NCBI RefSeq assembly: GCF_023008545.1 | Contig: NZ_CP095397.1 | Coordinates: 1,550,001-1,614,000 of the forward strand | Direction: 5' to 3' | DNA length: 64,000 bases | From: Natribaculum luteum | GTDB taxonomy: Archaea > Halobacteriota > Halobacteria > Halobacteriales > Natrialbaceae | Part shown: one piece after another, positions 662 through 16,650 of the stretch | How positions within the stretch are numbered: the first letter of the stretch is position 1 | Layout of the letters: each line of letters starts with the position of its first letter | Program-made: the position numbers and the translations under genes | The notes under the pieces: model-generated | Seen by the model: the letters and a program-made list of their open reading frames with translations, nothing else | What the model was told of the DNA's origin: nothing | Database searches by the model: none

Positions 662-1252
662 TCACTCGTCGGATTCGTACTGCGAGAGCGACTGATCGGT
701 CACGTCCGCCCGGTGACTCGTCGCCAGCCCCGCCAGGTGTGGCGCCTCGGGAACGATCAGTTTCTCGCAGGCGGTTCGACACGCGCTCTTGCTCCCCGGC
801 AGACAGAAGACGGGCGTGTCGACGGCGATTCCCGCGGTCGCTCGAGACGCCATCGCCCGCGTGCCGACTTCCTCCCACGAGAGCGAGCGGAAGAGCTCGC
901 CGAACCCCGGCAACTCGCGTTCGAACAGTGCCGAGGTCGCCTCGGGTGAGACGTCGTCTGCGGTGACGCCCGTTCCGCCGGTCGTCACCACGACGTCGAC
1001 GTCCCGTCGAGCGACGAGGCTTCGGACTGCCGTCCGGATCGTCGCGTAGTCGTCGCGTACCAGTTCGCGGACGCGCACCTCGTGGCCGTGCGCTTCGAAG
1101 ATCTCCTCGATCGTATCTCCGCCCGGATCGTCCGGATCTGCCTCCTGTGCGCGAGAACTCGAGACCGTCACGATCGCCACGTACAGCGGATCGATGACGT
1201 CGTGGCCGTGGTCGTCGGTCGAACGCCTGTCGTTCGTATCTTCAGTCGCCAT
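662..1252 (-). CDS. moaB: MoaB/MogA-type molybdenum cofactor biosynthesis protein
   Basis: A 196-residue protein of the MoaB/MogA fold, which binds molybdopterin and adenylates it before metal insertion. The visible signatures are the strand YVAIVTVSSSR (about 24-34), the TGGTG loop (91-95) followed by acidic residues (VTADD, 96-100), and LPGS near 151-154, which sits in the MPT-binding pocket of the family. The N-terminal 20 residues are an acidic, disordered halophile-style extension. It reads on the same strand as the COG0523 gene upstream, with about 60 bases between them. MogA and MoaB cannot be told apart here; archaea usually carry the MoaB form. Confidence 0.9.
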   Translation of the reverse strand: MATEDTNDRRSTDDHGHDVIDPLYVAIVTVSSSRAQEADPDDPGGDTIEEIFEAHGHEVRVRELVRDDYATIRTAVRSLVARRDVDVVVTTGGTGVTADDVSPEATSALFERELPGFGELFRSLSWEEVGTRAMASRATAGIAVDTPVFCLPGSKSACRTACEKLIVPEAPHLAGLATSHRADVTDQSLSQYESDE

Positions 1253-9347: not shown

Positions 9348-9420
9348 GTCCTGATAGGGTAGTGGACTATCCTCTTGGCTTGCGGAGCCAGGGACCGGAG
9401 TTCAAATCTCCGTCAGGACG
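9348..9420 (+). tRNA. tRNA-Arg (GCG)
   Basis: Cloverleaf with acceptor GTCCTGA/TCAGGAC, anticodon stem TTGGC/GCCAG closing loop TTGCGGA (anticodon GCG), and T-arm CGGAGTTCAAATCTCCG. The discriminator is G and CCA is not encoded. No intron is seen. Its 21-base 3' end is repeated exactly 125 bases downstream. Confidence 0.95.
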
Positions 9421-9545
9421 TTTCTGACGCGACAAACCCACGAGCGGCGCGCAGCGTTGCGAGTATCTGTCGCGTCAAAACGGACTCGGGAGATTTGAGC
9501 AGGGAGCTGCTTCGCTGCGACCGTGTTCAAATCTCCGTCAGGACG
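9421..9545 (+). repeat. First tRNA-tail repeat unit after tRNA-Arg
   Basis: A 125-base unit ending in an exact 21-base copy (9525-9545) of the tRNA-Arg 3' end (9400-9420). A 12-bp stem with one G-T pair is formed by 9489-9500 and 9525-9536. Its 24-nt loop (9501-9524) differs at one base from the loop after the CAU tRNA at 131-108. Upstream in the same unit there is another 10-bp perfect inverted repeat, TGACGCGACA (9425-9434) with TGTCGCGTCA (9468-9477). Confidence 0.75.
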
Positions 9546-9664
9546 CTTTCACCGACACAAAACGCCGAGCGAAGCGAGGCGTCTGCGTCAGTATGTAACT
9601 CGAACACGACGATTTGAGCCGGGTGCAGCGTTGCTGTGACCGCGATCGAATGGCCGTCACCAGC
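9546..9664 (+). repeat. Second, degenerate tRNA-tail repeat unit
   Basis: It repeats the pattern of the previous unit in decayed form. GATTTGAGC (9611-9619) precedes a 24-nt loop-like segment (9620-9643) that matches the other loops at about 18 of 24 bases. Then comes a diverged tRNA-tail copy ending in GGCCGTCACC. The inner small stem is kept by a G-T pair (GCAGC with GCTGT). A separate hairpin ACGCC/GGCGT lies near 9562-9582. The unit abuts the stop codon of the convergent permease gene. Confidence 0.55.
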
Positions 9665-11233: not shown

Positions 11234-12810
11234 GTAGTTGGATAGCGTGACCAGGATTCACCGGCCAGTGATGCCTCTCATCCTAATCTGAGTTCTTGCC
11301 CACCGAGGATGGACTGGAGCTGTTCAGGCGGATCAAGTCCTCGTCGTTTCCACGTGGCTAACATGGTCGTAATCGTCTCGTGAATCTGGACCCCTTCGGC
11401 TGAGCGGAGGGTCCGGAACATCTTCCGCAGCACAACTTGCTCGCGCAGAGCGCGCTCTGCGCGATTATTCGTCGAATCGACGTCTGGCTCTGTAACGAAC
11501 GTCAGCCAGTGCCCTAACCCGTTCCTGATCTTCTCGATCAGCTTCTTGACCTCCTGTGCCTCGTAGTCTTCCCTGATCAGGCCTTCCAGATGTAACGACG
11601 CCTCCGCCCGCTTTTGCTCGCGGGCGGAGGCGGACGGATCCTCCTCGTCGAACGCCGTTAAATCGTCATGGAGAGCGTGTAACTCCTCAGACAACCTCTC
11701 TGCTTCCTCGTACCGTTCAGCAACGTACTCCGCCTCCCGCAACAGATGTGCCCAGCACCGCTGGAGCTTCGTGTGATAGCTCGGATACGCTGACCAACCG
11801 TCACAGCTGAGCGTTGAGTCCTCGGCGAAGTCCTCGCCGAGGACGTCCTCTAACACCTGACTTCCACGACTCTCATCAACCCAGAACAGCACTTCTTCGT
11901 CAGTAACGAACGTCCACGCCCAGTGTTGCTCTCCGTCAACAGGAAATCCCGTTTCATCGCAGTAGACGACGTCACTTTCCTGAATACGGGCTTTGACATC
12001 GTCATACGCGGGTCGCAGCCGGTCTGCGACCCGCTTGGTCAGGTTGTAGATCGTCCGATGAGAGATGGGTGTATCGAGTTCCCAGTCAAACAGCTCCGCC
12101 TGTTTACGGTTTGGAAGTCGCTGATGGAACCTACCGAGGGCGGTTTGGGCCATGATATTTGGCCCAAACCGCCCGGTTTCCGGGCAGTCTGGATGTTCAG
12201 CAACGACTTCGTTTCCACAGGAACAGCGGTGTTTGCCGAGTTCGTACTCGACGACAGTGGTTGGAATAGGGAGAGGTATGTCGATAATCGTCCGTGAGAT
12301 GTAGCTGTCCGGGTTAGAGAGGATTTGCTCACAGTCTGGGCAATATCCCTGATCGACTCGAATAGTCTCCTCTGGTTCCGGAGGCGGTCGAGTTGTTCCT
12401 TCGTGACCTTCGTCACGTCCTGGAGAGGAGCCGCTGGCGGCGTCAGCGTCGCCGCCAGCGTCGTCCCCTTGGTCTTCGTTCTCTTCCTCGTCGCTGTCAT
12501 CGTTGCCAGGTGATCCAGCCACGCCACCCTGCTTACTGGGAGGTGTGTTTGGGTTTTCGTACCGCTTGAGGCGAGCCTCAAGTTGTTCGATCTGCTGTTG
12601 TTTTGCAGTGATCTGACGACGAAGAAGTCGGTTCTCAAGCTCTTTGACGACGAGTTGCTGGCGGAGATGCGTACTGTTCTCGGTGCGGATCGTGGAATCT
12701 ATCGATTCCAGCGATCCGCTAACCCCCAGCGACACACTTGATTCACCATTGAGAGACCATTCATGAGACTGCTACGAAATCGGTCTGACGGCAAATCGCT
12801 ATCCAACTAC
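11234..12810 (-). mobile_element. Intact IS66-family insertion sequence
   Basis: 1577-bp element. The ends are inverted repeats (GTAGTTGGATAGCG at 11234-11247, its complement at 12797-12810). It is flanked by the 8-bp direct repeat GACGGCAC at 11226-11233 and 12811-12818, the duplication length typical of IS66. It carries one transposase gene and no accessory tnpA/tnpB. Perfect ends and duplication indicate a recent insertion. It interrupts a DtxR/SirR-type regulator gene in frame. Confidence 0.93.
11278..12735 (-). CDS. IS66-family transposase
   Basis: 485 residues. The N-terminus is a coiled coil (repeated KELENRLLRRQ, KQQQIEQLEARL). An acidic linker follows, then a zinc-finger-like segment (CPDCEQ..., HRCSCGNEV) and the DDE catalytic domain. 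The catalytic residues appear in VYCDETGF, LSCDGWSAY and NNRAERALR, the latter holding the final Glu in the IS66 signature. The length and domain order match an intact IS66 TnpC-type transposase. There is no frameshift. It starts about 75 bases inside the right end of the element. Confidence 0.95.
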   Translation of the reverse strand: MSLGVSGSLESIDSTIRTENSTHLRQQLVVKELENRLLRRQITAKQQQIEQLEARLKRYENPNTPPSKQGGVAGSPGNDDSDEEENEDQGDDAGGDADAASGSSPGRDEGHEGTTRPPPEPEETIRVDQGYCPDCEQILSNPDSYISRTIIDIPLPIPTTVVEYELGKHRCSCGNEVVAEHPDCPETGRFGPNIMAQTALGRFHQRLPNRKQAELFDWELDTPISHRTIYNLTKRVADRLRPAYDDVKARIQESDVVYCDETGFPVDGEQHWAWTFVTDEEVLFWVDESRGSQVLEDVLGEDFAEDSTLSCDGWSAYPSYHTKLQRCWAHLLREAEYVAERYEEAERLSEELHALHDDLTAFDEEDPSASAREQKRAEASLHLEGLIREDYEAQEVKKLIEKIRNGLGHWLTFVTEPDVDSTNNRAERALREQVVLRKMFRTLRSAEGVQIHETITTMLATWKRRGLDPPEQLQSILGGQELRLG

Positions 12811-16188: not shown

Positions 16189-16650
16189 GGTTAAACTGGG
16201 TGAGAGGAGTAAGCCCCCTTCTGTTCGTCCCGGCATTCGGCTGAGCGTCCACGCCACCCGCGGAATTCGCGGTGTCTTCGGGCTACCAGCGGCGCGGACT
16301 TGCACCGGTGAGGATTCGCCGTTCCATCGATCCTCGGCCGTCTCTGCACAGTCGATCGCGCCGAGCGCGACCTGCGGTTTCGAACCGCGATACTCGACTG
16401 CGCTCCCTCTGCGGGTCAACTCCCCTTCCTCGCGGTCGGGTTCGCACGCATCATCGGTCGGGTCGAGACGTGTCGTTTCTGTTCCAGAGCCAGCGGTCTC
16501 CCGCTCCGGGCTTGCGCCCGGTCACCTGCCCGAACGGTGGGGGGACTTTCCTCGCGGGCGTGAAACGTCCGGACGGACGATCCACGTTGGACGGGCGCGC
16601 CGTTACCGACGCGTCCGCCGCGGCAGCCAGGCTCTCTCTCCCAACTAACC
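16189..16650 (-). ncRNA. rnpB: RNase P RNA (archaeal type A)
   Basis: Read on the minus strand, the conserved regions are all present: GAGGAAAGTCCCCCC, the ACAGAAACGACACG segment, the GGTGCAAGTCCG segment, and GACGAACAGAAGGGGGCTTA near the 3' end. The ends are placed by the P1 helix, where GGTTAGTTGGGAGAGAG (from 16650) pairs with CTCTCACCCAGTTTAACC (to 16189). This RNA is the catalytic part of RNase P, which trims tRNA 5' leaders. A TATA-like CTTATTC lies about 20-26 bases upstream. The ends are accurate to a few bases. Confidence 0.93.

Follow-up and report, generated by a model that had tools for sequence, protein, structure and literature searches.

How does a stem-loop behind the tRNA-Arg(GCG) gene of Natribaculum luteum come to have a stem that repeats the end of that very gene? 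The locus lies in a stretch of 64,000 nucleotides (contig NZ_CP095397.1, positions 1,550,001 to 1,614,000; hereafter the window). An earlier note on this DNA had described an exact copy of the tRNA-Arg end, an arm that pairs with it and a loop almost identical to the one behind tRNA-Met(CAU), and all of this could be read again directly from the letters. The tRNA-Arg end at 9400-9420 (GTTCAAATCTCCGTCAGGACG) recurs exactly at 9525-9545, the arm at 9489-9500 pairs with 9525-9536 including one G-T pair, the Arg loop at 9501-9524 differs from the tRNA-Met(CAU) loop at one base on direct comparison, and the inner GCTGC/GCTGC stem of the Arg loop contains a T-T mismatch. The features at the two tRNA genes are the following.

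9348-9420, + strand: tRNA-Arg(GCG) gene (ARAGORN, Rfam); tRNA positions 54-73 (9401-9420) form the target end, T
9421-9488, + strand: S (cap J1), hairpin spacer that separates the tRNA end from the inverted arm, with the inverted repeat 9422-9434/9468-9480
9489-9500, + strand: A' (T'), T-arm of tRNA-Arg in inverted copy, from sequence and arm pairing
9501-9524, + strand: L1 loop (cap J2), (C)AGGGA-stem-GACCGTG, in which the inner stem is short and G.A/A.G stand opposite each other
9525-9545, + strand: direct copy of the tRNA-Arg 3' end, an exact 21-base repeat that starts at G53^T54
9546-9610, + strand: S of a second, older unit (9400-9457 repeated at 9525-9582 with 76% identity)
9611-9659, + strand: decayed remainder of the second unit, comprising inverted arm, loop and end copy (78% identity to 9492-9540)
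188-262, - strand: tRNA-Met(CAU) gene (ARAGORN, Rfam)
86-187, - strand: unit behind tRNA-Met, with spacer 187-144, inverted arm 143-134, L1 loop 133-106 and end copy 105-86

Compared with shuffled sequences, the predicted fold of the hairpin at 9485-9540 gave z values of -4.72 with RNA and -5.08 with DNA parameters, and that of the spacer hairpin at 9421-9488 a z value of -2.77. The loop pattern, with up to three mismatches allowed, matched twice in the window, where 0.02 matches were expected. The decayed unit at 9611-9659, which is absent from the earlier note, is the third in the window. Elsewhere on the minus strand, an archaeal RNase P RNA gene (16198-16642, 158.6 bits) and a 485-residue frame with the look, by eye, of an IS66-type transposase (11278-12735) were found, and positions 1-85, behind tRNA-Met, resemble the left end of an SNJ2-type provirus.

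Anatomy and distribution of the unit

Behind a tRNA gene the parts follow one another in the order spacer hairpin S, inverted T-arm copy, loop L and direct 3'-end copy, with a median unit length of 124 bp. When all loci were pooled, 83 of 140 tRNA genes carried a unit (110 distinct units), a fraction that is biased because the loci were mostly picked by loop. The module is a repeating unit, which also occurs at a few protein-gene ends. The loop had been thought to be nearly constant; this holds in so far as the L1 form (CA-GGGA-stem-GACCG-TGG) recurs, but L1 belongs to a set of several loop families whose tips vary, the others sharing a common GTCGCAG ... ACCGTC core around a variable tip hairpin.

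The border of the copy is sharp. For 82 first units, identity to the tRNA was 1.0 at G53 and at least 0.98 at positions 54-61, while one base before G53 it was 0.65 and farther out near random; at the other side the end copy fades past position 73, the mature tRNA end. G53^T54 is not universal, since the units of tRNA-Pro(GGG) and tRNA-Ser(GGA) use other points of the tRNA. For tRNA-Arg(GCG), 30 family genomes revealed two more kinds of unit (types II and III), which copy the last 13 bases only. The inverted copy of tRNA units is clear for the T-arm and weak beyond it (mean score 3.64, compared to a maximum of 3.50 after re-dealing).

Within the genome of the window, 51 tRNA matches were reduced to 37 distinct genes. 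A search for arm and end copy, which is independent of the loop, found at least one unit behind 18 of these 37 genes and 26 units altogether, a tally of threshold counts that includes an apparently spurious second unit at tRNA-Met. Applied upstream of the tRNA genes and to reversed downstream sequence, the search returned 0/37 in both cases, and the units are consequently not due to chance, in agreement with the earlier note. The L1 loop pattern (up to three mismatches) occurs at 12 places in the 4.6-Mb genome. Eight of them lie behind tRNA genes (Met, Arg and Ser twice each, Thr and Lys once); the remaining four are at aspS (L011), 2.2 kb behind tRNA-Arg(TCT) (L006) and at two chance-like places.

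The recurrence of units in the genome and in the order likewise bears out the view of the earlier note that the module is real. Of 293 genomes of the order, 72 had the L1 loop when one mismatch was allowed, compared to 3 of 293 for a reversed control pattern. In a phylum-wide draw of 246 genomes, 16 had the loop; these all belong to the 43 genomes from the order, and the count for the 203 outside was 0. The 46 named L1 loci are all haloarchaeal by record title, and in 39 of them a same-strand tRNA gene lies within 1.5 kb upstream. The other seven comprise aspS (L041), two starts of protein genes (L023, L049), L030, and three loci (L045, L050, L053) where a tRNA-like tail is present and a tRNA gene was not found within the locus. 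The minus strand of L050 (2190-2450) has a partial tRNA-Arg copy that holds a hairpin at G53^T54; this hairpin is framed by L1 but has another, long inner stem, and the end of the tRNA copy is not restored. Around position 1501 of L076 a minimal unit lies outside any tRNA and reads TCTCG, 14 bases, CGAGA, loop, TCTCG. Nothing like these units was found described in the open-licence literature of PubMed Central.

Arm pairing and the copied gene ends

Covariation of the arms had been named in the earlier note as a sign of a real structure, and it was observed. In 43 units with a 28-base L1 loop, arm positions 57-65 were Watson-Crick pairs in 321 of 387 cases, whereas 2000 trials in which the 3' arms were re-dealt among the units averaged 254 and never exceeded 281. 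Each pair of the L1 inner stem was formed in 42 or 43 of the 43 units, with three two-sided changes, whose number is limited because this set was chosen by loop sequence. The arm mismatches (positions 1-10) displayed no wobble bias, with 29 G.T compared to 26 A.C. The tRNA-sense strand folded better in 90 of 105 units with RNA parameters and in 84 of 105 with DNA parameters, the set of 110 having been reduced to 105 rows by leaving out atypical units in second or later position at L001, L038, L044, L055 and L065. A kink-turn reading of the G.A pairs was abandoned on inspection, as the three-base bulge is absent.

At L023, L049 and L059 the start region of a protein gene is copied and the unit is oriented against the gene; according to the best models the genes encode a HAD-type hydrolase and two aminotransferases, the latter below cut-offs. 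Orientation of the unit follows the G^T motif and not transcription, which speaks for a rule at the DNA level. Together with the missing wobble bias, these three units leave selection for RNA structure in the arms unsupported.

L011 adjoins a gene that matches aspartate--tRNA(Asn) ligase models above cut-offs, and the aspS end encoding FPRDRQRLSP is copied behind its loop, with the inverted copy located between stop codon and loop. From the family 30 aspS loci were fetched, of which 21 were readable; the other nine, being off the codon pattern, were left out of the counts. Further end copies were found in 15 of the 21 readable loci (two of them weak), and six had no second copy. The readable loci and two others yielded 26 pairs of successive copies with a unit between them. 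Ten of these 26 pairs encode the identical ten residues FPRDRQRLSP in both copies and differ in DNA, so that both copies seem to have been working gene ends. When T' was compared with the reverse complement of the end copies, the upstream T fitted better in 21 of the 26 units, both equally in one and the downstream copy better in four. Judging from this fit, the unit seems to bring its own target end, T-J1-T'-J2. By eye, the serine codons of successive aspS copies (L196-L225, L041) switch in most cases between AGY and TCG; recombination may have removed neighbours that were identical, or something else is responsible.

Gains, losses and loop exchange became apparent from a second genome of the genus, G208. 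At its tRNA-Val(GAC) gene precisely one unit is missing, the first one, which adjoins the tRNA; the array is otherwise the same. Its tRNA-Arg(TCT) gene has neither the unit nor the provirus found there in N. luteum, the flank being joined directly to the tRNA. At tRNA-Val(CAC) and aspS, flanks and arms are kept and the loop is different. Units are thus gained or lost and loops are swapped between the two genomes, with an ambiguous direction of change: the polymorphisms at Val and Arg are explained equally well by gain and by loss through recombination between the 20-bp copies, and the swapping of caps could be gene conversion.

A cassette reading and its alternatives

Taking the sharp border, the fitted arms and the aspS ends together, we lean towards the reading that the units are very small, gene-free, non-autonomous and site-specific hairpin cassettes which restore the gene end that they enter. 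An inserted unit would read T - J1 - T' - J2 with the older T behind it; here T is the target gene end (tRNA positions 54-73 or the last aspS codons), T' is its inverted copy, and the hairpins S and L are the caps J1 and J2. Opening a single-stranded dumbbell circle, with the target end as stem and S and L as caps, would give such a unit. The folded single-stranded form would insert at G^T(T)C through site-specific recombination; the incoming T would replace and thereby restore the target end, and the old end of the host would be pushed outward. The arms might be fitted to a new target by fold-back copying of that target. Evidence against the cassette reading comes from the second units of L003, L084 and L118, where the inverted arm agrees at single positions with the downstream and not the upstream copy, and from the four of 26 aspS units that favour the downstream copy as well. 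The weak reach of the inverted copy past the T-arm in tRNA units, the readings of the G208 differences as loss or gene conversion, and the other points used in tRNA-Pro(GGG) and tRNA-Ser(GGA) also count against it. More tentatively, and with considerable doubt on our side, the units may represent a new category of mobile DNA: dumbbell circles with a host-end stem and exchangeable caps, which enter as single strands at G^TTC, have their stem refitted to any gene end and accumulate in arrays behind tRNA genes.

Among the alternatives, scars or parasites of SNJ2-family tyrosine integrases were considered, the hairpin being a form of attP and the units deletion derivatives moved in trans, an origin that we judge to be rather unlikely. 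It would suit the array of L050, which is adjoined by an SNJ2-type integrase with 43% identity to SNJ2 Int, and the unit types II and III, which copy only the last 13 bases of tRNA-Arg like SNJ2 cores. It would also suit the attP of Haloferax virus LSV-48N (PP151251.1, L190, about 780-865, minus strand), whose arms fit the T-arm of tRNA-Pro and enclose a small inner hairpin; a link between this attachment hairpin and the mover is possible. However, 18 integrase queries against the 46 named 8-kb loci matched in one locus and in none of the other 45, as is the case for non-autonomous units. In seven of eight viral records no unit-like hairpin was seen by eye at the att core, and the viral cores, where visible, start later in the tRNA and mostly comprise its last 13-15 bases. 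Furthermore, provirus and unit are separate at tRNA-Arg(TCT) in N. luteum, since a provirus remnant sits there between the tRNA and an older unit. This 2.2-kb insert, which lies in L151 (G000:C1:1493500-1498500), had been tried as a gene cassette and was rejected: it ends in an integrase piece of 124 residues with 69% identity to SNJ2, which identifies it as a decayed SNJ2-like provirus.

A viral or plasmid home of the units was likewise rejected. The L1 pattern had 0 matches in the viral contigs searched, the phage matches of the Met unit were limited to four records via short pieces of 21 or 30 bases, and a plasmid search with window positions 9421-9600 gave zero matches. Single-protein scans for further viruses with an SNJ2-type integrase found none, and an alignment-based virus scan returned two contigs only (15010 and 16159 bases), which fit HHPV4 and HRPV9 and were already covered.

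Template switching at gene ends is an unlikely source in our estimation. A stalled fork would switch strand and back and leave T-T'-T, with the hairpin caps copied from other units, and a dedicated enzyme would be unnecessary. The direct-inverted-direct order at aspS, where the axis is the stop codon only, the arms without wobble bias and the exchange of caps between units having the same flanks are all consistent with such a process. Local copying would, however, hardly be expected to produce the synonymous differences between successive aspS ends, and both the same G53^T54 start in 82 first units of many tRNA genes and a conserved loop with arms fitted to different tRNA genes argue against it.

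The units could also form an RNA structure in the 3' trailer of the tRNA, such as a signal for processing or termination, and be preserved by selection on RNA, which appears quite improbable: the conserved inner loop with its G.A pairs, the better folding of the tRNA-sense strand and the two-sided inner-stem changes would agree with it, whereas the unit is missing behind 19 of the 37 tRNA genes in this genome, patchy between close relatives, free of wobble bias in its arms and opposite to transcription at three protein genes.

Relation to known mobile elements and consequences

The proposed cassettes share features with several known systems. The attC site of integrons is a hairpin with complementary arms and a variable tip, which is joined at G^TT. 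In layout the units look integron-like, with an arm-matched hairpin and variable tip, a putative join at G^TT, arms matched within one unit, a tandem array and a fixed entry site. Unlike integron cassettes, they have no reading frame, their arms are the host gene end and they enter at the ends of tRNA and other genes. A search for the integron integrase (TIGR02249) gave 0 of 61 family genomes above the cut-off, the best match reaching 73.5 bits compared to 265. The units are therefore not regarded as integrons. SNJ2-type viruses also use and restore tRNA 3' ends of haloarchaea, but they are kilobase-sized, carry an integrase and have a core of mostly the last 13-15 bases, whereas the units are too short for an integrase gene.

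In the account of the small mobile repeats of Haloquadratum, SMR-A is a conserved sequence without target duplication that occurs in IS605-type elements and their derivatives, and its mobilisation is termed enigmatic by the authors (PMC3119063). As far as that description goes, SMR-A resembles the units in its length of about 110 bp, its inverted arms, the lack of genes, the haloarchaeal host and the link to a palindrome, and is set apart by the target-fitted arms and the target-end copy of at least 20 bases that the units have. Casposons, as described in PMC6614799, have inverted ends, a Cas1-type integrase and a duplication of 14-15 bp that starts about 8 bp behind TCAAATC, the motif that the A. 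boonei casposase needs upstream of the insertion point. Like the units, they target the 3' end of a tRNA gene (PMC6614799), but the copies of type I units begin at T54, in front of the TCAAATC motif. The units are moreover too short to code, and the single Cas1 match of the genome lies on contig C2, the window on C1.

If the cassette reading is right, mobile units would make up much of the DNA that directly follows haloarchaeal tRNA genes, and they would have been overlooked because each copy resembles the neighbouring gene. A mobile element could then switch its target and yet leave the target intact. The aspS ends would represent a new route by which horizontal transfer could renew the ends of tRNAs and proteins, and the search for the archaeal recombinase would be made concrete by a given substrate and cut point.
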